Below, one piece after another: positions 52,164-64,000 of a stretch of 64,000 nucleotides of DNA (positions are counted from its first letter, which is position 1; each line of letters begins with the position of its first letter). Location of the stretch: assembly GCF_037153975.1 (NCBI RefSeq), contig NZ_JBBAYJ010000005.1, positions 62,001 through 126,000 of the forward strand. The letters run 5' to 3'. The notes beneath the pieces are model-generated. The model saw only the letters and a program-made list of their open reading frames with translations, was not told where the DNA came from and ran no database searches. A program made the translations under genes and the position numbers. This stretch comes from Aquipuribacter sp. SD81. Its GTDB lineage: Bacteria; Actinomycetota; Actinomycetes; Actinomycetales; JBBAYJ01.

Positions 52164-54641
52164 TCAGCCGAGGGGCGTGCCGGCCCGGCTGCCGGGGTTG
52201 CAGACGTTCGCGACGTTGACGACCTCGCCGCGGCCGACCACGACCTCCTTGACGGCCTTGACCTCACCCTTCTGGTCGGTGCAGGTGAGCGTCCACGCCT
52301 CCGGGTCGTTGACGACGCGAGGCGTCGGGCCACGGAACGTGACCGTGCCCGACCAGTCGTCGTCCGCCCCGCCGTCGTAGTTGAAGACGACGAGCGTGTA
52401 CTCACCGGGGACCGGGTCGCGCCACGTGATGACCTCGGGCTGACCGCCCGTGGCCGCGCTGCCCACCACCTGGCCCTCAGCGTCGAGGAGGTAGAAGTCC
52501 CAGTCCGCCACGGCGGCGGAGCCCCACGTGAAGCGGAGGTCGGCGAACGCGTTGTCGAAGCCCTCCTCGATCGTGACCGGGACCGACTCGTAGGCACCGT
52601 CGAAGCTGAGCGCCCGGTTCTCGGCGGGCACGCCCTCCGGGTTGGCCAGCGTCACGTCCGGCTGCGTGGGGGCCGTCGGGTCACGGCCGTCGCGGCCGGC
52701 CACGATGGGACGCGTCGACGGGTTGACCGCGAACTCGAAGCGCCCGCCGGTCGAGTCGTAGCGGCTCGACAGCGAGTCCTCGAAGCTGGATGACCTCGCC
52801 GCCGCGACCGATGACCGGCGACGTGCTCGTGAAGAACTCCTTGTTCACCTCGAGCGACCAGCCCGCGGGCATGGTGCCGACGAGCCGCGAGTGGTAGGCC
52901 GGGTCGGCCGTCGCACGCTGCATCTCGAGGTACGCGGCGCGGTTGCCACCGAGGCCGGCGCCGGCCGCGGGCTCGAGACCGAGGTACTCCGCGACGACCG
53001 CCCGCTCGAAGGCCGGGTGGAAGTTCTCGTCGCCGATCTCGGGGGTGAAGCCGATGGAGCCGGCCGTCCAGAACGCCCAGTCCTCCGTGCCGCCCGTCGT
53101 GTCGTACAGCTCGTAGGACGGGATGTTGGCGTAGCCGTTGTGCGCGGTCGCCCGCGCGCCGAGCTCCTTGTACATCGGCTCCTCGAGCGGGGCGCCGGTC
53201 GCGGCGACACCCGGCGGGCGCAGCCACAGGTTGGAGTACGTGTGGTTGGTGATGAGCGTCGTCACCGAGCGGGTGCCGATGAGGTTCTTGATGTTGCGGG
53301 TCTCCGGCTCGCTGAACGGGTCGTCACCGCGGTAGGTGTCGCTCGACCAGCTCGTGCTGGCGCCCGGACCGCCCCACAGGCCGCCGTAGTTGCGGTTGAG
53401 GTCGGTGCCACGCAGGCGCCCGGCGTTGTTCGCCGCGCACGTGCCCGTCGTGTAGTTGACCGGGGCCGTCGGGGTGTTGGCGGAGATCTTGCAGTTCTTC
53501 CGCTTGTTGTCGTACGAGAACGTGCCGAACGTGTCGGTCGTCGTCGCCTCGCGGGAGATGGTGAAGCCGTCGGGGTTCACGACCGGCACGATGATCGTGC
53601 GGGTCTCCTCGACCAGGTCGGTGATCTCCTCGTCGCTCCCGTAGCCGTTGAGCAGCTCGTACGCCCACTCCATCGCGTGCTCGCCCGAGGGCCACTCGCG
53701 GGCGTGGTGCAGGCCCATGTGGAGGAGACGGGCTTCCCGTCGTGGACGCGGTCGACGTCGGTCGTGATCTCGATGCCGTGGACCATGCGGCCCTCGACGG
53801 TGGGCTCGTCGAGCGTGATGGGACGGACCATCCCCGGGTGGTCGGCGACGAGCTGCTTCATCTCGCTCTCGTAGTCGGCGAGGCGCCGGTACTCGGTGCG
53901 GCCGCTGGGGAGGGACGTCGAGTCGTTGGCGGCGGCGAACTGCGCGTCGGCGCGGCGGTCGGCGGCGGACTGCGCCCCCAGGTCGGCGATCTCGACGTCG
54001 TAGTCGAAGCCCGCGGCCTCGAGCGCCTTCTTGTCGGCCTTGCCGTGCAGGACGACGTCGATGCTCGTCGGCGTGCCGTGCTCGGTGAGGTCGAGGTCGA
54101 GGCGCTGCAGCTTCTCCTTGTCCTTGCGCGTCGGCGTCTCGACGCTGACGAGCGTCGACGTCTCCGGCTCACCCTCGATCTCGAGGAACGCGAGGTCGAC
54201 GGTGACCTCGGCGCCCTTGCCCTTGAGCAGGCAGCCCTGCACGGTGAGCTCGGTGCCGGCGTCGACGAAGCCCGTGGCCTTCTCCCGGCCGGAGAAGCCG
54301 GCGCTCGCGGCGACGACCTCGCCCGCGTCGTCGAAGACCGCGAGGTCCCAGTCGCCCGCACCGGCGATGCCGGCCTCGACGAGGCCGCTGGTCGGGGCCG
54401 TCACGGTGTAGGAGTCGACGCCCGCGCCACGGGCGGGACCGTCGGCGCAGGTGCGCGCCTGGGCGGAGCGCACCTCGAGGACGTTGACCGGGCCGGCCTG
54501 CGCCGCGGGCACGGCGAGGACGGCACCCGACACCACGAGGGCACCGGTGACGCCGACGGCGACGCGGGTGCGGGACCTGCGTCGGCGTCGGTGACCGGGG
54601 TCCCCGGGGACGGCCGGGGGTGGAGCGGAGGAGAACGACAT
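52164..54641 (-). pseudogene. M14 zinc carboxypeptidase with two compensating frameshifts
   Basis: Starts at ATG 54639-54641: signal peptide (TRVAVGVTGALVVSGAV), then a beta region and MGLHHAREWPSGEH with the zinc HxxE, LNRNYGG, NHTYSNLWLRPPG with the third ligand and GFTPEIGDENFHPAF with the catalytic Glu. It reads in one frame to about 53726 (HDGKPV), then a neighbouring frame to about 52790, then the first frame again. The C-terminus is a PPC-like beta domain. The family M14 active site is complete, so the two single-base shifts may be errors rather than decay. Confidence 0.75.
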
Positions 54642-54726
54642 GCGTGTCGCCTTCCGCTGGTAGGTGGGGCGAAACGTAGGCGTCACCGCATGCGAGAACA
54701 AGGCTTTACCGACCGGTCGGGCACGG

Positions 54727-55146
54727 CTAGGGTGCGGCGCCCTCCGAACCGCCCGGCGCACCCGTCGGGAGGCTGCTCAGCACGCAGAACTCGTTGCCCT
54801 CGGGGTCGGCCATCACGAGCCACGTGACGTGCTCGTCGCCGCCCTGCCCGATGTCCGCGCGACGCGCGCCGAGAGCCTCCAGGCGTGCGACCTCGGTGTC
54901 CTGGTCGTCCGGTGCGAGGTCGAAGTGCCAGCGGTTCTTGCCCGCCGACTTCGCGTCCTGCACGCGCCAGAACATGACGGGGAACGCCTTGCCGCCCTCC
55001 TCCCGCGTCGCGGCGGGCGCGATGACGGCCGCGCTGCCGTCCTCGGCGGAGTGGACGAGGTGCCAGCCGAGGGCCTCCACCCAGAACCGCGCCTGCGCGG
55101 CCGGGTCGAGGGAGTCGACGGTCACGGAGTTGATGTGCAGCGCCAT
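54727..55146 (-). CDS. VOC family protein (glyoxalase-like)
   Basis: 139 aa from ATG 55144-55146. INSVTVDSLDPAAQARFWVEALGW is the N-terminal beta-alpha-beta half, and HFDLAPDDQDTEVARLEALGA with VMADPEGNEFCVL the second half with the metal-binding Glu of glyoxalase-like domains. Actinobacteria carry many such small proteins, including bleomycin-resistance-like members; substrate unknown. Confidence 0.82.
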   Translation of the reverse strand: MALHINSVTVDSLDPAAQARFWVEALGWHLVHSAEDGSAAVIAPAATREEGGKAFPVMFWRVQDAKSAGKNRWHFDLAPDDQDTEVARLEALGARRADIGQGGDEHVTWLVMADPEGNEFCVLSSLPTGAPGGSEGAAP

Positions 55147-55221
55147 GCCCGCGGACGGTAGGGGAGGGGCCGGACACTGCGCGGACGACGGCGCGGCGCG
55201 AGGCACCCGAGTCGGGCGAGG

Positions 55222-55246
55222 CGTATGCCCCCATTGGGGGCATACG
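55222..55246. repeat. Palindrome of the CCCCCATTGGGGG type (copy 1)
   Basis: CGTATGCCCCC (55222-55232) and GGGGGCATACG (55236-55246) are perfect arms around ATT. It lies in the divergent spacer between the VOC gene and metY. A related copy is at 61941-61969. The sequence translates into the VCPQWGHTP peptide seen in spurious actinobacterial ORFs, which marks it as a recurring element rather than a gene. Confidence 0.65.
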
Positions 55247-55343
55247 GCCTCACGCACGACCCTCGCCGGTCCGGTCGGCGTCGACGTCCCGGCCGCGTGG
55301 ACCGGCCGGCCGGTGCGGCGCCCACCGGTGGCACGCTTGGCGC

Positions 55344-56702
55344 ATGAGCGAGCGGCAGTTCGGGTTCCGCACCCGCGCCCTGCACGCCGGCGGCGCGCCG
55401 GACCCCACGACGGGCGCGCGGGCGGTGCCGATCTACCAGACGACGAGCTTCGTGTTCGAGGACGCCGCCGACGCCGCCAACCTCTTCGCGCTGCAGAAGT
55501 ACGGCCTTATCTACTCCCGCATCGGCAACCCGACCGTGTCGGCGCTGGAGGAGCGGCTCGCCTCCTTGGAGGGCGGCCTCGGGGCCGTCGCGACCGCGTC
55601 GGGGCAGGCCGCGGAGTTCATCACCTTCGCCGCGCTCGCCGGCGCCGGCGACCACGTCGTCGCGGGCGCGTCGTTGTACGGCGGGACGATCACCCAGCTC
55701 GACGTCACGCTGCGCCGCTTCGGGGTCGACACGACCTTCGTGCGCGGCGGCGACCCCGCCGACTTCGCCGCCGCGATGACCGACCGCACCCGGTTCGTCT
55801 TCGCCGAGGTCGTCGCCAACCCCGGCGGCGAGGTCGCCGACGTCGCGGGTCTCGCCGAGGTCGCCCACGCCCACGGCGTGCCTCTCGTCGTCGACGCCAC
55901 GACCGTCACGCCGTACCTGTGCCGGCCGATCGAGCACGGCGCCGACATCGTCATCCACTCCACGACGAAGTTCATCGGCGGCCACGGCACCACCCTCGGC
56001 GGGGTCGTCGTCGACTCCGGCCGCTTCCCGTGGGACAACGGGAAGTTCCCCTCCATGACGGAGCCCGTGCCGAGCTACGGCGACCTGCGCTGGTGGGGCA
56101 ACTTCGCCGAGTACGGCTTCCTCACGAAGCTGCGCAGCGAGCAGCTGCGCGACATCGGCGCGTCGCTCAGCCCGCACTCGGCGTTCCTGCTGCTGCAGGG
56201 CGTGGAGACGCTGCCGCAGCGCATGCGCGAGCACGCCGCCAACGCGCGCCGGGTCGCCGAGTGGCTCGAGGCCGACGAGCGCGTCAGCTGGGTCCGCTAC
56301 GCCGGCCTGCCGTCGCACCCCGACCACGAGCGCGCCGAGCGCTACACCCCCGAGGGTCCCGGGGCCGTCTTCAGCTTCGGCGTGCGCGGCGGGCGCGAGG
56401 CCGGCGAGCGGTTCATCTCCTCGGTGCGGCTGTGCAGCCACCTCGCGAACATCGGCGACGCCCGAACCCTCGTGCTGCACCCGGCGTCCACGACGCACCA
56501 GCAGCTGAGCGAGGAACAGCTCGCCGCGGGCGGCGTCTCGCCGGACCTCATCCGCATCAGCGTCGGGCTGGAGGACGTCGACGACGTGCTGTGGGACCTC
56601 GACCAGGCCCTCGACGCGGCCGTGCGCGGCGACGTGGCGAGCGCGTCGGCCGCGCCCCCGCCCGACGAGGTCGACGGCGGCACCTCGGCGGTGGCGTCGT
56701 GA
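55344..56702 (+). CDS. metY: O-acetylhomoserine sulfhydrylase (PLP, Cys/Met metabolism family)
   Basis: 452 aa from ATG 55344. FRTRALHAGGAPDPTTGARA, YSRIGNPTVSALEERLASLE, ASGQAAEFITF and IHSTTKFIGGHGTTLGG with the PLP lysine are diagnostic for the MetY group. It makes homocysteine from O-acetylhomoserine and sulfide. Coupled by GTGA to a CoA-binding protein, a frequent pairing in actinobacteria. Confidence 0.92.
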   Translation: MSERQFGFRTRALHAGGAPDPTTGARAVPIYQTTSFVFEDAADAANLFALQKYGLIYSRIGNPTVSALEERLASLEGGLGAVATASGQAAEFITFAALAGAGDHVVAGASLYGGTITQLDVTLRRFGVDTTFVRGGDPADFAAAMTDRTRFVFAEVVANPGGEVADVAGLAEVAHAHGVPLVVDATTVTPYLCRPIEHGADIVIHSTTKFIGGHGTTLGGVVVDSGRFPWDNGKFPSMTEPVPSYGDLRWWGNFAEYGFLTKLRSEQLRDIGASLSPHSAFLLLQGVETLPQRMREHAANARRVAEWLEADERVSWVRYAGLPSHPDHERAERYTPEGPGAVFSFGVRGGREAGERFISSVRLCSHLANIGDARTLVLHPASTTHQQLSEEQLAAGGVSPDLIRISVGLEDVDDVLWDLDQALDAAVRGDVASASAAPPPDEVDGGTSAVAS

Positions 56703-57205
56703 GCGCGACCCCGCGCGACGAGCGCACGTGGAGCGGCCCGAGCGCGCAGCAGCGCCAGGCGATCCTGCGCCGGACCCGGACCGTCGCCGTGGTGGGCGCC
56801 AGCGACAAGCCGTCGCGCGCGTCGTACTTCGTCTCGACGTACCTGCTGTCCACCTCGCCGTACGAGGTGTGGTTCGTCAACCCGAACGTGCGCGAGATCC
56901 TCGGCCGGCCCGTGTACTCCTCGCTCGCCGAGCTGCCCGGGGTGCCCGACCTGGTCGACGTGTTCCGCCGCCACGACGACCTGCCGGCGGTGCTGGAGGA
57001 GACCCTCGCCCTCGACGAGGGCGTGCAGACGCTGTGGCTGCAGCTGGGGCTCTGGCACGAGGGCGTCGCCCGCCGCGCCGAGGCGGCCGGCCTCGACGTC
57101 GTCATGGACCGTTGCCTCAAGATCGAGCACGCCCGGTTCCACGGCGGCCTGCACCTCGCGGGCTTCGACACCGGCGTCATCGACTCCCGGCGGCGCCGCG
57201 ACTGA
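56699..57205 (+). CDS. CoA-binding protein (Rossmann, YccU-like)
   Basis: 168 aa from GTG 56699, overlapping the metY stop. TVAVVGASDKPSRASYFV, VWFVNPNVREILGRPVYSSL, and the end GLDVVMDRCLKIEHAR with a conserved Cys mark the CoA_binding_2 family. These bind CoA or an acyl-CoA as regulators. A link with acetyl-CoA use in homoserine acetylation is inferred from the coupling. Confidence 0.85.
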   Translation: MSATPRDERTWSGPSAQQRQAILRRTRTVAVVGASDKPSRASYFVSTYLLSTSPYEVWFVNPNVREILGRPVYSSLAELPGVPDLVDVFRRHDDLPAVLEETLALDEGVQTLWLQLGLWHEGVARRAEAAGLDVVMDRCLKIEHARFHGGLHLAGFDTGVIDSRRRRD

Positions 57206-57216
57206 GGGACCACATC

Positions 57217-57264
57217 CGTCTGCGTTCGTGTCGACGTACGGCGCGTGCGTCTGCGTTCGTGTCG
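57217..57264. repeat. 17-bp direct repeat in the spacer upstream of the molybdopterin protein
   Basis: The 17-mer CGTCTGCGTTCGTGTCG occurs at 57217-57233 and again at 57248-57264, 31 bp start to start (about three helical turns). It occupies the 82-bp gap between the CoA-binding stop and the ATG at 57288. It could bind a regulator or be a leftover duplication. Confidence 0.55.
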
Positions 57265-57287
57265 TCGAGCGCGGGTTACCGTGCCGC

Positions 57288-58322
57288 ATGGCGGCGGCGA
57301 CGCGACGGCGGGGTCTGCCGCGCCGCGTGAGCAACTGGCTGCTGCTCGTCGCGACGGCCGTCGCGCTGCTCACCGGGCTGCTCACGTGGTTCGTCGTGAC
57401 GGACGCCGGCCGCTGGGTCGTCGCCGTGCACGGCGCCGCAGGGCTGCTCCTTCTGCTGCTCGTGCCGTGGAAGACGCCGGTCGTCCGCTCCGGGCTGGCG
57501 CGCGGGCGCCGCACCCGCTGGCTGTCGCTGCTGCTGCTCGCCGTGACGGTCCTCGCCCTCGTCACGGGCGTCCTCCACGCGACGGGGCTGGCGACGGCCG
57601 CGGGTGGGCAGCTGATGATGTGGTGGCACGTCGCGTCCGGCTTCACCGTCGCCGCGCTGCTCGTGTGGCACGCGCTGGCCCGTCGGCAGCCGCTGCGGCG
57701 CACCGACCTCGACCGGCGGCTCGCGCTGCGCGCCGGTGGCGTCGCGCTCGGCGCCGGGGCGATGTGGCTCGCGACGAGCACCGCCACCACCGCGCTCGCC
57801 CTGCCCGGTGAGGCGCGCCGCCCCACCGGCTCGTACCTGCTGCCGCGGCCGCGCCCGACCATCTGGCTGTTCGACAGCACGCCGGCCCGCGCCGACGCCG
57901 ACCCGGTGATCTGGCATGTCGACCTGACGGACGCCGACGGCACCCGCACCGTGCCCGTCACCGACCTCGCCGGCTCGGCGGAGCGCACGAGACGAACCGT
58001 CGTCATCGACTGCACCTCCGGCTGGGCGAGCGAGCAGCCGTGGACGGGCGTGCCGCTCGCCGCGCTCGTGCGGCCCGCCCCGGGCGACCGGTCGGCCCTC
58101 GTCCGCTCCCGCACCGGCTACGCCCGCCGGTTCCCGATCGCCGAGCTCGACGACCTGCTGCTCGCGACCGACATGGCCGACGCGCCGCTCGACGTCGTCC
58201 TCGGCGGCCCTGTCCGCCTCGTCGTGCCCGACCAGCGCGGGTTCGCGTGGGTCAAGTGGGTCGCCGAGGTCCGCACCGACCCGGCGCCGCCGTGGGCGCA
58301 GCCGCCCGTCCCGCTGCGCTAG
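57288..58322 (+). CDS. Membrane molybdopterin-type oxidoreductase with cytochrome-b-like N-terminus
   Basis: 344 aa from ATG 57288. Four or five hydrophobic helices (NWLLLVATAVALLTGLLTW, then LLLLLLVPWKT, SLLLLAVTVLALVTGVLHA, WWHVASGFTVAALLVWHAL) are followed by a soluble sulfite-oxidase-like domain with VVIDCTSGWASEQPWTGVPL carrying the molybdenum Cys and KWVAEVR at the end. His residues in the helices could bind haem. Probably membrane-bound oxidoreductase; substrate unknown. Confidence 0.8.
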   Translation: MAAATRRRGLPRRVSNWLLLVATAVALLTGLLTWFVVTDAGRWVVAVHGAAGLLLLLLVPWKTPVVRSGLARGRRTRWLSLLLLAVTVLALVTGVLHATGLATAAGGQLMMWWHVASGFTVAALLVWHALARRQPLRRTDLDRRLALRAGGVALGAGAMWLATSTATTALALPGEARRPTGSYLLPRPRPTIWLFDSTPARADADPVIWHVDLTDADGTRTVPVTDLAGSAERTRRTVVIDCTSGWASEQPWTGVPLAALVRPAPGDRSALVRSRTGYARRFPIAELDDLLLATDMADAPLDVVLGGPVRLVVPDQRGFAWVKWVAEVRTDPAPPWAQPPVPLR

Positions 58323-58454
58323 CGCCGGGCGCCCTGGACATCCGCCCGGAAGGTCGGGCACCACGACCCTGGGACCCGGGACACCGGGCGCCGCAGAGTC
58401 CTCCTCGACGCGGACCGCCCGGTCCGCCCGGTTCTCACGAGGAGACACCACGCC

Positions 58455-59201
58455 ATGAGCACCACCGCCAACCCCGCCGCCTTCGCCGCCGCCCACCCCG
58501 CCCACCCCGCCGTCCCGTCACCGGCTCACGAGGTCGCCGACGCCTCGACGCGCGCGGCAGCCCGCCGCCCCCGCGCCTGGGCCTGGACGGGCGTCGCCGC
58601 GGGCGTCCTCGGCGTCGCGGCGATCCAGATGAGCCTGCTCGTGACGCCGGTCTACGACGACGCCACCGCCGGCGACGCCGAGGCCATCACGACCGCCATG
58701 GGCGACCTCGTGCCGGCCCTGCTCGCCTTCCACCTCACGACCACGACGCTGCTCGTGCTCCTGCCCGTCGTCGCCGCCGGTCTGCACCGGCGCCTCCGTA
58801 CCGCGCTGCCCGGCACCAGCCTGCTCCCGGGGGTCGCCGCCGCGGGCCTGCTCCTGGTCGCGGCGGCCGCGCTCATGGGCTCCGCGCTCGACACGGAGTT
58901 CATCTTCGCCGCCGGCGAGCCCGACCGGGTGGTGCCGGAGTCGGTGGCCTTCTACGGGCACTGGGTCGGCACGGTGCCGTGGCTGTGGGTGGGTGCCGGC
59001 ATCAGCGGCGTGGCCGTCGCGGTCGCCTCGCTGCGGCACGGCGCGGTGCCGCGCTGGCTCGGCGTGGTCGGCCTCGTGCTCGGCGGCCTCACGCTGCTCC
59101 TCGGCGTCAGCCCCCTGCAGTACATGGCCGGCTTCACGGGTCCGGTCTGGCTGCTGGTCACCATGCTCGGCCTCGCGCTCGGCGACCGTCGGGCAGCGTG
59201 A
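58455..59201 (+). CDS. Polytopic membrane protein of unknown function
   Basis: 248 aa from ATG 58455 behind GAGGAGA. A 40-residue Ala-rich hydrophilic start precedes seven hydrophobic helices. A conserved-looking FIFAAGEPDRVVPESVAFYGH loop is in the middle. No family recognised. The two-component system that follows starts 49 bp downstream and could regulate it. Confidence 0.6.
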   Translation: MSTTANPAAFAAAHPAHPAVPSPAHEVADASTRAAARRPRAWAWTGVAAGVLGVAAIQMSLLVTPVYDDATAGDAEAITTAMGDLVPALLAFHLTTTTLLVLLPVVAAGLHRRLRTALPGTSLLPGVAAAGLLLVAAAALMGSALDTEFIFAAGEPDRVVPESVAFYGHWVGTVPWLWVGAGISGVAVAVASLRHGAVPRWLGVVGLVLGGLTLLLGVSPLQYMAGFTGPVWLLVTMLGLALGDRRAA

Positions 59202-59250
59202 GCCGAAACCCTCTCCCGGGACGCCGGTCGGTCCGTACGCTGCGCTCGCC

Positions 59251-61266
59251 ATGACAGCGACCGTCGCCGCCGGCAGCGGGACCACCACCGCCGCGCCGGC
59301 CCTCCTCGAGGGCCGGCGCGGTGGCGCGCCTGCGGCCGCCGTCGTGACCCTCGTCCTCGCCTGGGGGACCGGGGTCCTGTCGCTCCTCCTCCTGCTCGGC
59401 GCCGCCCTCCGGCCCGGGGAGGACCTGATCTTCTACGCCGTCGACCTCGCCGTCGCCGTCGTCTTCGGTGCCGTCGGGGCCGTCGTGCTGTGGCGGGTCG
59501 TGCACCCCGTCGCCGTCCTGATGTCACTGGCCGCCGTCGGTGGCGCGCTCGCGTGCCTCGGCTACGGCTACGACGCCCTCGGGCGGGAGGTCGGAGGGCT
59601 GCCCGCGCAGGATGCCGTGTACCGGCTCTTCAGCACCGCGTGGCTCCCCGGGACGTTCGCGATGTTCCTCGTGCTGCCGTGGCTGGTACGGGAGGACGGC
59701 TCGTGGCCGCCCGACCGGGCGGGTCGTGCGGGACTGGGCGCGGGCCTGTTCGTGACGTCTCTCGTGCTCGGGATCCAGTTCCTGCCCGAGACCGGTGCCG
59801 CCTTCCTCGCCTTCTCGGCTCTCACCGCGGTGGCGGTCGTCCTGGGGCTGGTCGCCGCGTGGGCGTGCGTGCGCCGGCGTCGTGACCTGCCGCCCGGCCA
59901 GCGGACGCCGTACGTCTGGCTGGCGCTCGGCACGGCGACGGTCGCCGTCTCGTTCGTCCCCTTCGCCGTGCCGCCGTTGCTCGGCGTCGTGCCCGTCGCG
60001 GTCGTCCCGTCGCTGCACCTGGTGAGCCAGGTGCTGCTGCCCGGCGCCGTCATGGTCGTGGTCCTGCGCCGCCGGCTGTGGGGGCTCGACCTCGCTCTGT
60101 CCCGCGCGGTCCTGGCGGGCGCGCTGACCGCGGTGCTCGTCCTCGCCTACGTCGTCGTCACGGCGCTCGTCGGTGCGCTCGTGCCGGGCACCGGCCTCGG
60201 CCAGCTCGCGGCGGCCGCCGCGGTCGTGGCCGCGGTCCAGCCGTCGCGGCTGTGGCTGCAGCGCCGCGTCGACCGGCTCGTCCACGGTGACGCGCACGAC
60301 CCCGCGCAGGCGGTCCGCCGCCTCGGTGCCTCCCTGGGCGCCGCGTCGTCGACGGAGGACCTCCTCGAGGGGCTCGTCGACGGCGTCGTCGCCGCCCTCC
60401 GGCTCGACGGCGCCGTGCTCGTCGTCGACGGTGAGGAGGTCCTCCGCCGCGGCCGCCCGTCGCCCGGCCCGGACACCCTCGGCGTCCCCCTGCAGCACCG
60501 CGGCGCGCCCGTGGGGCGCCTCGACGTCACCGCCCCCGGCGGGGAGCGGCTCGACGCCCGGGGCCGGGCGGCGCTCGCGGACCTCGCCGGCGTCGTCGCG
60601 GCGGGCGTGGCGCTCACCGTGGCCGCGCGCGACCTCGAGACGGCCCGGGAGAAGGTGACCGAGGCCCGGCTGGCCGAGCGCCGCGTGCTGCGCCGCGAGC
60701 TGCACGACGGCCTCGGGCCGTCGCTCGCGGGTATCCGGCTCGGCATCGGTGCGGCGCGCAACGTCGTGCGTGAGGACCCGGCGGCCGCGGCCGACCTGCT
60801 CGAGGCGCTGCAGGCCGAGCTCGACGAGCGGGTGCAGGACGTCCGCACCCTGTCCCGCGACCTGCTGCCGCCCGCGCTCGACGAGCTGGGGCTCCTGCCC
60901 GCGCTCACCGAGCTCGCGGCCCGCCACGCGACCGGCGGTCTCGACGTGCGGCTCGACCTCGACCCCGCGACGTCCGCGCTGCGCGGGCCGCTCGCCGTCA
61001 CCGCCTACGGCATCGTCGTGGAGGCGGTGACGAACGTCGCCCGGCACAGCGGCGCCTCGTGCGCCACCGTCCGGCTGCGCCGCGAGGACGACCGGCTCCT
61101 CGTGCACGTCGACGACGACGGCACGGGCATCGGTGACCGCGCGGTGCCGGGCGTCGGCACGTCGTCGATGCGGGAGCGCGCGGAGGAGGTCGGCGGCACG
61201 CTGCGCCTCGGCGCGGCGCCGGGCGGCGGCACCCGGGTGGCGGCGGAGCTGCCGTGGCCGGCGTGA
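59251..61266 (+). CDS. Sensor histidine kinase, NarL/HisKA_3 type
   Basis: 671 aa from ATG 59251. About ten hydrophobic segments in the first 330 residues, a GAF-like linker (SSTEDLLEGLVDGVVAALR to about 450), then the dimerisation helix with phospho-accepting His485 in RRELHDGLGPSLAG and the ATP-binding HATPase region (VVEAVTNVARHSGA, DDGTGIGD, GGGTRV). Partner of the next gene by GTGA overlap. Signal unknown; membrane-embedded sensor is likely. Confidence 0.9.
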   Translation: MTATVAAGSGTTTAAPALLEGRRGGAPAAAVVTLVLAWGTGVLSLLLLLGAALRPGEDLIFYAVDLAVAVVFGAVGAVVLWRVVHPVAVLMSLAAVGGALACLGYGYDALGREVGGLPAQDAVYRLFSTAWLPGTFAMFLVLPWLVREDGSWPPDRAGRAGLGAGLFVTSLVLGIQFLPETGAAFLAFSALTAVAVVLGLVAAWACVRRRRDLPPGQRTPYVWLALGTATVAVSFVPFAVPPLLGVVPVAVVPSLHLVSQVLLPGAVMVVVLRRRLWGLDLALSRAVLAGALTAVLVLAYVVVTALVGALVPGTGLGQLAAAAAVVAAVQPSRLWLQRRVDRLVHGDAHDPAQAVRRLGASLGAASSTEDLLEGLVDGVVAALRLDGAVLVVDGEEVLRRGRPSPGPDTLGVPLQHRGAPVGRLDVTAPGGERLDARGRAALADLAGVVAAGVALTVAARDLETAREKVTEARLAERRVLRRELHDGLGPSLAGIRLGIGAARNVVREDPAAAADLLEALQAELDERVQDVRTLSRDLLPPALDELGLLPALTELAARHATGGLDVRLDLDPATSALRGPLAVTAYGIVVEAVTNVARHSGASCATVRLRREDDRLLVHVDDDGTGIGDRAVPGVGTSSMRERAEEVGGTLRLGAAPGGGTRVAAELPWPA

Positions 61267-61928
61267 GCGAGGACGTCCGGGTCGCCGTCGTCGACGACCA
61301 CCCGGTCTTCCGGCTCGGGATGGTGAGCCTGCTCGGCAGCCTCGACGGCGTCGCCGTCGTCGGCCAGGCCGCCTCGGCCGCGCAGGCGGCCGACGTCCTC
61401 GACGAGACCGCGACGCCCGACCTCGACGTCGTCCTCATGGACGTCGACCTCGGCGACGGCTCCGGCATCGAGGTGACACGCGACCTGGTCCGGGCCCGGC
61501 CGGACGTCGCCGTCCTCGTCGTCACCATGCACGAGGACGACGACAACCTCGTCGCGGCCATCCGCGCGGGGGCCCGCGGCTACCTGCTGAAGAGCGCGAG
61601 CCCGACCGAGGTGGAGCGCGCCGTGCGCGCCGTCGCGAACGGCGAGGTCATCCTCGGGCCCGAGGTCGCCGCGCGAACCCTCGCGTACCTGTCGGGTGCG
61701 CGTACCGCCGCGGTCGGTGGTCCGGTTCCGTTCCCCGAGCTGACGGCCCGCGAGCGGGAGGTGCTCGACCTCGTCGCGCGCGGCCTCGACAACGCCTCGG
61801 TCGCGCGACGGCTGGTCCTGGCCGACAAGACCGTGCGGAACACCGTCGCGGCGATCACCGCGAAGCTCGCGGTGCGGGACCGGTCGGCCCTCATCGTGCG
61901 GGCACGGGAGGGCGGGCTCGGCGGCTGA
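61263..61928 (+). CDS. NarL/LuxR family response regulator
   Basis: 221 aa from GTG 61263 (GTG 61254 also in frame), overlapping the kinase stop. Receiver: VAVVDDHPVFRLGM with the acidic pair, phospho-acceptor Asp60 in VVLMDVDLGDGS, Lys in GYLLKSAS. DNA-binding domain: LTAREREVLDLVARGLDNAS with a helix-turn-helix KTVRNTVAAITAKL. Activates unknown targets when phosphorylated by the partner kinase. Confidence 0.92.
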   Translation: MSEDVRVAVVDDHPVFRLGMVSLLGSLDGVAVVGQAASAAQAADVLDETATPDLDVVLMDVDLGDGSGIEVTRDLVRARPDVAVLVVTMHEDDDNLVAAIRAGARGYLLKSASPTEVERAVRAVANGEVILGPEVAARTLAYLSGARTAAVGGPVPFPELTAREREVLDLVARGLDNASVARRLVLADKTVRNTVAAITAKLAVRDRSALIVRAREGGLGG

Positions 61929-61940
61929 GGTCCGTCGTCG

Positions 61941-61969
61941 GGCGTGTACCCCCACTGGGGGCACACGCC
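61941..61969. repeat. Palindrome of the CCCCCACTGGGGG type (copy 2)
   Basis: GGCGTGTACCCCC (61941-61953) pairs with GGGGGCACACGCC (61957-61969) with one mismatch around ACT. It lies between two convergent stops (61928 and 62001) and matches the copy at 55222 in core and flanks. In this position it could terminate both genes. Confidence 0.62.
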
Positions 61970-62000
61970 TGCTCACGAGGTGCGCCCCCGGGCAGGCTTC

Positions 62001-63203
62001 TCACGTCCAGTACAGGACCCGCAGGCCGGGCAGGCGGCGCGCGAGCTCGGCCTCGAACCAGGTCCGCAGCTCAGCCATGACGTCCTTCGGGTAGACGTAC
62101 TTCAGCGAGCCGTACCGGCCGCGCTTCTCCGTGCGGCGCGAGGGGTCCATGTCGACGCGGGTGCGCGGGTACCAGCCGAGGAGCACGTCGCGGCTGCCCG
62201 GCGTGAAGCGGTGCGTGATGAGCTCGGCGGTGAGGTCGAGGTCGGGCACGGCGTCGACGGCGGCCTCGACGAGGTCGAGCAGGTGCCCGTAGTGGGTCCG
62301 CCAGTCCTCGACCGGCATGAGCGGCGCCATCGTCAGGCCCACGGGGTAGCCGTCGAGCGCGAGCCGGCGCAGCGCGGCGAGCCGGTCCTCCAGCCGCGCC
62401 GTCCCGCCCTCGACCCGCTCGGTGACCGGCAGGCAGTTGACGCTGAAGCGGACCCGGGTGCGCCCGGCGTGCGGCAGTCCGACGAAGTCGTCGACGTCGG
62501 CGTACTTCGTCGTCCACCGCAGCTGGACGTCGGCGTCCCAGTCGCCGAAGAACTCGACCGCGCGCCGCCACGAGCCCGTGAGGTGCTCCAGCGCGAGCGG
62601 GTCGGTGTAGCAGGACGCCTCGAAGGTCGTGCCCTCGTGCGCGCGGTGCTCGCGCCGGCTCGTGACGGTCCCGCGGCCGAGGTAGGGCTCGAGCCCGGCG
62701 AGGATGTCGTCGAGGTCGGCGTACACGCGCGTGACGGGCGGGCCGGACAGCGACCCCGCGAGGTAGCAGTACTGGCAGTGGGCGGGGCAGCCCTCGGCGA
62801 GGTCGACGCGCCAGTCCGCGCTCGGGGCGATCGGCTGCAGGTCGCGGCGCGACGGCGGGCTCACGACGACGGCCATCGTCGACTTCGCCCGCGCGTAGGT
62901 CTCCCGGTCGCTCGCCCCGCGCACGCCCGTCAGCCGGTTCGACCTCAGCCGCTCGACCTCGAGGCCGAGCGCCTCGACCCGTTCCACGATGCACACCCCG
63001 TGGGGGTGCTCGAGCGCCGCCGGGGTGACCACGACCCGCTTCGGGGTCCACCGGCGGGCCGGCCGGGCGGGCGGCGCCAGGGCCGTGAGGTCGCGGGTCT
63101 CGACGACCTCCCCGCTCGCGTCGTGGGGCACGGCGGGGACGTCGACCGCGAGCGGCTCGCCGAGGTCCACGTCGGCGGGGCCCGTGCGCTGCTGGTCGTC
63201 CAC
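62001..63203 (-). CDS. Radical SAM protein, spore-photoproduct-lyase-like
   Basis: 400 aa from GTG 63203. CPAHCQYCYLAGS is the CX3CX2C iron-sulfur motif, followed by FEASCYTDPLALEHLTGSW, VRFSVNCLPVTERVEGGTAR and LITHRFTPGSRDVLLGWYPR as in the SPL family; KYVYPKDVMAELRTWF closes it. Actinobacteria that do not form endospores carry such homologues, so repair of DNA photoproducts is not assured. Confidence 0.88.
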   Translation of the reverse strand: MDDQQRTGPADVDLGEPLAVDVPAVPHDASGEVVETRDLTALAPPARPARRWTPKRVVVTPAALEHPHGVCIVERVEALGLEVERLRSNRLTGVRGASDRETYARAKSTMAVVVSPPSRRDLQPIAPSADWRVDLAEGCPAHCQYCYLAGSLSGPPVTRVYADLDDILAGLEPYLGRGTVTSRREHRAHEGTTFEASCYTDPLALEHLTGSWRRAVEFFGDWDADVQLRWTTKYADVDDFVGLPHAGRTRVRFSVNCLPVTERVEGGTARLEDRLAALRRLALDGYPVGLTMAPLMPVEDWRTHYGHLLDLVEAAVDAVPDLDLTAELITHRFTPGSRDVLLGWYPRTRVDMDPSRRTEKRGRYGSLKYVYPKDVMAELRTWFEAELARRLPGLRVLYWT

Positions 63204-63277
63204 GCCTCCACGGTGCGGTCCCGCGGGCGGGGCGGCACCTCGGCGCGCGTGTCCGGGGCGTGGGGCACGATGGTCGC

Positions 63278-64000
63278 GTGACGACGGAGACCACGGCCCC
63301 CGACAGCACCCCCGAGGCGACGGGCCCGCTCGCCCACCTCGACCCCTCGGTCCGCCCGCAGGACGACCTGTTCCGCCACGTCAACGGCCGCTGGCTCGAG
63401 ACGGCGGAGATCCCCTCCGACCGGGCCGCCCACGGCAGCTTCTACCTGCTCCGCGAGCAGTCGGAGGCCGACGTCCGCACCATCATCGAGGAGTCCGCCG
63501 CGTCGCAGCCCGAGCCGGGCTCCAACGCGCAGAAGGTCGGCGACCTGTACGCGAGCTTCATGGACACGGAGCGGATCGAGGCGCTCGGCACCGAGCCGCT
63601 GCGGCCCGTGCTCGCCCGCGTCGACGCGGCGGAGGACGTCGAGGGCCTCCTGCGGCTGTTCGGCGAGCTCGAGCGCGAGGGCATCGGCGGCGCCTTCGGC
63701 TCCTACGTGTGGGTCGACAAGGGCGACCCCACCCGCTACCTGCTCCACCTGTCCCAGGGCGGCATCAGCCTGCCGGACGAGTCGTACTACCGGGAGGAGC
63801 AGCACGCGGCCATCCGCGACGCCTTCCCCGACCACGTCGCGCGCATGCTCACCCTCGCCGGCGTCGCCGAGGGCGAGGCGGCCGAGGCGGCCGCGCGCAC
63901 AGTGCTCGCGCTGGAGACCCGGGTCGCCGCGTCGCACTGGGACACCGTCGCCTCCCGCGACGCGGTGAAGACGTACAACCTGCGCACGGGCGAGAAGCTC
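63278..64000 (+). CDS. M13 family metallopeptidase, N-terminal part (partial)
   Basis: 241 codons from GTG 63278 to the window edge. LDPSVRPQDDLFRHVNGRWLE and IPSDRAAHGSFYLLREQSE with KVGDLYASFMD are typical of the N-terminal lobe of neprilysin-like M13 peptidases (PepO/ZmpA type). The HExxH zinc motif would lie beyond the window. No signal peptide is evident, as in other actinobacterial members. Confidence 0.9.
   Translation, partial: MTTETTAPDSTPEATGPLAHLDPSVRPQDDLFRHVNGRWLETAEIPSDRAAHGSFYLLREQSEADVRTIIEESAASQPEPGSNAQKVGDLYASFMDTERIEALGTEPLRPVLARVDAAEDVEGLLRLFGELEREGIGGAFGSYVWVDKGDPTRYLLHLSQGGISLPDESYYREEQHAAIRDAFPDHVARMLTLAGVAEGEAAEAAARTVLALETRVAASHWDTVASRDAVKTYNLRTGEKL

Follow-up and report, generated by a model that had tools for sequence, protein, structure and literature searches.

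Small palindromic repeats in bacterial genomes

Small palindromic repeats that lack a mobilizing enzyme are poorly explained. The best described palindromes of similar size are REPs, which the available portion of PMC3733652 presents as hairpins of 20-40 bp, mostly intergenic, with a bias toward 3' ends and convergent gaps; copies inside genes occur occasionally, and some families are nested inside other palindromes. According to the accessible text of PMC3116915, REPs occur hundreds of times. Untagged REP-like families have been noted in M. tuberculosis, D. radiodurans, Bordetella, Brucella, and cyanobacteria (PMC3733652, in the part available). A different route to such structures is template switching, reported in the portion of PMC8794818 at hand to create long-stem hairpins and to maintain their pairing.

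The window considered here, a 64,000-nucleotide stretch of Aquipuribacter sp. SD81, contains two copies of a 23-bp palindrome that is found ten times in the assembly (G000). Several features recall REPs and REPINs: a length within 20-40 bp, multiple dispersed and mostly extragenic copies, and a placement bias with one intragenic copy that matches published REPs as described in the consulted part of PMC3733652. Other features differ. There are 10 copies rather than the hundreds given in the available text of PMC3116915; no close inverted doublets exist, the nearest two palindromes lying 6.7 kb apart; and the half-site from which the palindrome is built also has a direct-repeat counterpart. No GTAG or CGTC tag is present beyond chance: GTAG accompanies none of the ten, while CGTC lies within 8 nt of 3/10 (chance 0.16 per copy) and within 12 nt of 4/10 (chance 0.26). 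A search of the assembly (96.7% complete) for the RAYT (Y1 transposase) family PF01797 at E <= 0.001 gave no matches, and mobilization by a RAYT was rejected on that ground. Since three REP attributes were looked for in vain (a terminal tag, a RAYT, and copies by the hundred that include doublets), the family is called REP-like rather than REP. It resembles the untagged families of PMC3733652, as far as that source was available, in being small palindromes without terminal tags, a likeness at the level of description.

Two palindromes in the window

The first palindrome, W1, occupies 55223-55245 (GTATGCCCCCATTGGGGGCATAC) and consists of an 11-bp half-site, one central base, and a second, facing 11-bp half-site; like the other copy it is assigned to neither strand. 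Its hairpin extends to 55218-55251 by pairing of GAGGC (55218-55222) with GCCTC (55247-55251), G55246 being bulged. W1 sits between divergent genes: on the left a Glyoxalase_6 (glyoxalase-like) gene on the minus strand (54727-55146, with a start inferred at about 55146), and on the right a plus-strand gene for a Cys/Met metabolism PLP-dependent enzyme (55344-56702, from its open reading frame and Pfam). The divergent gap (55172-55325) is about 130 bp longer than in the congener G001.

The second, W2, at 61944-61966 (GTGTACCCCCACTGGGGGCACAC), is likewise 23 bp long, and its arms contain one position that is A.C on the plus strand and G.U on the minus strand. The extended hairpin spans 61939-61971, CGGGC (61939-61943) pairing with GCCTG (61967-61971), one G.U included. 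W2 lies between convergent genes, both assigned from reading frame and Pfam: a LuxR-type response regulator on the plus strand (61254-61928), which stops before the palindrome, and a spore photoproduct lyase-like gene on the minus strand (62001-63203), whose end faces it. The lyase-like gene (window 61928-63261) is missing at the matching place of G001, where the response regulator is directly followed by the counterpart of the gene at window 63260. Both palindromes and their contrasting contexts agree with the preliminary description of this DNA; each palindrome also has additional pairing arms.

That description also proposed that the antisense reading of the motif yields a peptide recurring in spurious annotations. 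The minus-strand frame through W1 does include VCPQWGHTP; we judge the longer open reading frame that reaches 55257 through the palindrome, on the side of the glyoxalase-like gene, to be spurious. The corresponding reading of W2 is MCPQWGYTP. The case carries a warning: a look-alike peptide read in frame, VCPQWGHTP for instance, can stem from a repeat and not from a gene.

Considered alone, the window offers little: a 13-bp core with up to two mismatches matches 5 times, against a shuffle mean of 6.3, which is not above chance. A check against Rfam, recommended in the preliminary description, returned no match in window 54000-64000 at the gathering threshold. The palindrome is judged real because whole-genome counts, and not the window count, support it.

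Copies across the assembly

The assembly comprises 3.86 Mb in 69 contigs. The exact core CCCCCANTGGGGG is present 8 times, each time with GTRTR/YAYAC arms, and is absent from the reversed control; the full 23-bp pattern GTRTRCCCCCANTGGGGGYAYAC with up to two mismatches occurs at 10 (reversed control, 0): C2:83418, C2:97579, C2:117500, C4:58713, C5:117223 (W1), C5:123944 (W2), C7:21682, C10:121472, C19:38868, and C35:15294. Looser patterns were noisier. One gave 3 control matches. The loosest matched G000 at 15 places but also both congeners and the G000 control, at 2 places apiece; its 5 additional places were left out and the family was counted as 10. The idea that the element might exist only as the two copies of the window therefore falls.

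Placement was read from a crude GC-frame gene caller with local inspection. By this measure 5 copies are convergent (W2, C2:83418, C2:117500, where the right gene is weakly supported, C4:58713, and C35:15294), 2 are tandem (C2:97579 and C19:38868), 2 are divergent (W1 and C7:21682, the latter flanked by tRNA-Arg and FMN reductase genes), and 1 is within a reading frame. Eight are wholly intergenic; the final 6 bases of the C35:15294 copy take in the stop codon of the gene on its right, and the in-frame copy, C10:121472, encodes VYPQWGHT within a Pro-rich stretch of a 587-codon frame that has no Pfam match. At least one gene end is followed by 7/10 copies, and 3/10 follow none. Pfam searches of 10 flanking proteins, 3 of them without a match, returned unrelated families with no evident common function or pathway.

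Two copies, C2:83418 and C2:97579, lie 14 kb apart and have tens of bases of flank in common; copying together with flank has therefore taken place. The long common flank GGTACCCGCGCGAGGCGG has exact matches only at these two copies. A 34-kb interval, C2:83418-117522, holds 3/10 palindromes and 2/5 of the exact direct repeats described below.

One half-site in two arrangements

The half-site GTRTGCCCCCA has 18 exact matches in the genome, all of them paired (reversed control, 1): 13 stand within palindromes and 5 in direct repeats of 11-bp period, such as GTATGCCCCCACTGTGCCCCCAC. This occurrence of one paired half-site in both inverted and direct arrangement is new here. A search for the direct form found 5 exact cases (C1:13641, C2:99433, C2:112221, C6:103386, and C9:27861) and 3 at one mismatch (C11:126864, C20:43682, and C24:15981), with 1 in the control; at one mismatch G001 has 1 (control, 0) and G002 has 2 (control, 2). 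The exact repeat at C9:27861/27872 is inside a long open frame that appears menD-like from its translation read by eye, and C24:15981 is within a called reading frame; the repeats at C9:27872 and C24:15981 may be due to chance. The closest approach of a palindrome to a direct repeat is 1.9 kb.

In 343 kb of sequence, a sample picked to include palindromes, TGCCCCC pairs no more than 60 bp apart take only two forms, direct at 11 (4 cases) and inverted at 10 (4 cases), with none everted. A count of over-represented 12-mers in the same 343 kb was dominated by common words and gave nothing informative. Among the 20 palindrome arms, half-site positions 3 and 5 are changed in 10/40 cells and the other nine positions in 3/180, under a search pattern that itself permitted purines at positions 3 and 5 plus up to two mismatches elsewhere.

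Pairing beyond the 23-bp core

In 9/10 copies the stem is longer than the core by 3-8 pairs, one mismatch or bulge allowed. Summed over the ten, outer pairing reaches 42 against 13.0 at random places. A comparison with positions drawn at random from the 343-kb sample gave 35 against 11.7, with 0/200,000 draws as high. The main control was pairing across copies in random orientation. Within-copy pairing exceeded it when one duplicate was dropped (35 versus a mean of 20.6, p 0.00035), when both were dropped (28 versus 16.6, p 0.001), and with all ten (42 versus 26.7, p 0.04), a case in which the cross-copy control is inflated by the duplicate pair. A fixed-strand version of this control gave 0/20,000, and the weaker, orientation-free one was preferred. 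The outer arms are therefore common in part, many half-sites having GGC next to them, and in part peculiar to each copy. Outer pairing is weak among the 8 direct copies (16 versus 10.4, p 0.057).

For a structure of 18 pairs, 82.8% of cells pair and the covariation score is 0.267, each equaled or exceeded in 2/500 shuffles; 20 cells are changed on both sides (7/500 shuffles). Of the 18 pairs, 8 are changed on both sides, 7 of them outside the core, a count that does not exceed what shuffling yields (mean 7.2; 218/500). Eight folds of 4/10 copies range from -27.6 to -42.8 kcal/mol, and for each 0/200 shuffles were as stable.

Distribution beyond this genome

The preliminary description took the motif for a dispersed palindromic element of actinobacteria. 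Its dispersed character is borne out by ten copies in mixed placement with copy-specific outer-arm pairing; its breadth is not. Among 396 genomes sampled evenly across the order, with G000 and the congeners G001 and G002 included, the 23-bp palindrome with up to two mismatches was present in 1, G000 itself, and in none of the other 395. Found in one sampled species, the family is therefore not a general actinobacterial element; as far as collections show it is restricted to one species, and it looks young. In a 59-genome sample, 4 other genomes had one stray core apiece, with arms absent.

An exact scan for the inner 21 bp, TRTRCCCCCANTGGGGGYAYA, covered 84,980 species with one genome for each, a design that may omit the genomes nearest to G000. 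It gave 5 single matches, of which Burkholderiales account for 4 and Sinosporangium for 1; every one reads TATACCCCCA[AT]TGGGGGTATA, with TATAC arms. Three of the 5 were inspected (L032 4443-4463, L034 1068-1088, and L036 7565-7585), with gene names taken from translations read by eye: two adjoin MNT/HEPN-like pairs (Paraburkholderia and Trinickia), and one is upstream of a ribbon-helix-helix-like gene (Sinosporangium). Judging by these three, the look-alike sites seem unrelated to the palindromes of G000 and may be operators of toxin-antitoxin modules.

Seven of the ten copies were aligned with one or both congeners, leaving out C2:97579, C2:117500, and C10:121472. At all 7 places G001 and G002 carry other sequence and no palindrome; none of the 7 provides an empty site, the intergenic DNA of the congeners being too diverged. 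Synteny with G001 is broken at W2, C2:83418, C7:21682, and C4:58713, and unbroken at W1, C19:38868, and C35:15294. A link of copies with synteny breaks was rejected, 4/7 not being clearly above background when about 8 gaps in gene content relative to G001 occur within the window alone.

Spread by viruses or plasmids was set aside as well. IMG/VR had no match to the exact palindrome pattern, and a plasmid search with W1 (58 bases) found none; a phage search with W2 and its flanks (111 bases) gave only weak matches in three records, of which one phage accounts for two (E 0.09); they cover query bases 14-47, a stretch that belongs for the most part to the end of the response-regulator gene rather than to the palindrome.

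Literature searches, with most subscription journals outside their reach, found no paper with CCCCCATTGGGGG or with CPQWGHT, none pairing GTGCCCCCAC with "direct repeat," and none on small dispersed palindromic elements of Actinobacteria.

Possible nature and origin of the palindromes

The best explanation, held with about equal measures of confidence and doubt, is a lineage-specific family of small dispersed, untagged, REP-like repeats, some copies of which are perhaps terminators. Mixed placement, occurrence in one sampled species, an in-frame copy, duplication with flank, and copy-specific stems all fit a small repeat of this kind. The unit would be the 23-bp hairpin core, two facing 11-bp half-sites GTRTRCCCCCA around one base; it would have multiplied by copying within this lineage without a resident Y1/RAYT transposase, with copies persisting where they are least harmful. 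The stability of the extended hairpins suggests that some copies may have a secondary role in ending transcripts. Against this reading stand the low copy number, the lack of a GTAG tag and of a PF01797 match, the failure to find an empty site at the 7 aligned places, and a number of pairs changed on both sides no higher than in shuffles. The direct-repeat form and the confinement of changes to positions 3 and 5 suit a protein-binding half-site no less well.

The main rival, possible though on balance unlikely, holds that the palindromes are binding sites of a lineage-specific DNA-binding protein, of regulator or nucleoid/partition type, which would recognize a pair of GTRTRCCCCCA half-sites, inverted or direct, separated by roughly one helical turn. 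The pairing of all 18 exact half-sites, the two spacings of TGCCCCC seen in the 343 kb picked to include palindromes, and arm variation that falls almost entirely on the purines of half-site positions 3 and 5 speak for it; a paired half-site in two arrangements, with constrained positions, keeps this rival alive. Yet half of the palindromes lie between convergent genes and one in a reading frame, the ten are not, going by the flanking proteins searched, placed upstream of functionally related genes, and copy-specific outer-arm pairing is not expected for an operator. A particular version can be dismissed. Operators of CsoR/FrmR-type repressors are dyads of a C run and a G run, and the palindromes share with them a C5-G5 dyad, as do the five look-alike matches (TATACCCCCANTGGGGGTATA), but they have neither a common regulon nor an adjacent CsoR gene. 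The single CsoR-family gene (PF02583), at C10:69602, and the copy closest to it (C10:121472) are some 52 kb apart, and nowhere in the 3.2-kb locus of this gene is a run of at least four C followed within 6 bases by a run of at least four G; a CsoR-type operator was rejected on this distance and the missing dyad. Three of the five look-alikes lie by genes whose translations suggest toxin-antitoxin-like or ribbon-helix-helix types, so even these look-alikes need not be CsoR operators. That the palindromes are simply bidirectional intrinsic transcription terminators with a common apex sequence is distinctly improbable. The 4 copies that were folded give very stable stems, most copies follow at least one gene end, and strong hairpins are frequent in this genome (31 at a score of at least 12 in 343 kb); but only 2 of those 31 belong to the family and the other 29 have no common core by eye, and termination requires stem stability rather than a conserved 23-bp core. 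Two copies between divergent genes and one in a reading frame also fit terminators poorly, and at C2:97579, C19:38868, and C10:121472 (copies read from a single strand) the strand that is transcribed shows an A.C mismatch and not G.U. Chance look-alikes arising from GC-rich sequence would accord with the chance-level count of loose cores in the window, but the exact core occurs 8 times with matching arms and never in the control, and the 10 copies have no counterpart in 395 related genomes, which leaves this account scarcely credible.

As to origin, a conceivable if improbable alternative to copying as units is that template switching made the palindromes where they stand, starting from an 11-bp direct repeat (two units of TRTGCCCCCAC). 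The nascent strand would snap back after CCCCCACTG and copy the first half-site and left flank in reverse. Such a process would explain one half-site in two arrangements with a fixed center, as well as copy-specific outer arms, which pair strongly in the 10 inverted copies and weakly in the 8 direct ones. Set against the template-switch hairpins of PMC8794818, as far as that source was available, the process is only proposed for these palindromes. Since the REP-like family looks young, is small enough for complete mapping, and has a direct-repeat counterpart, sister strains could distinguish spread as units from making in place.

A separate repeat family was also observed. Its 31-bp unit, about GCGCGTACGTCTGCGTTCGTGTCGACGTGCG, is tandemly repeated at many places in G000, with no congener match among the matches listed; it includes window 57210-57268, and other arrays lie at C2:177650-177964 (10.2 copies), C11:63143-63344, C9:79172-79308, C6:94524-94641, and C39:7661-7841.
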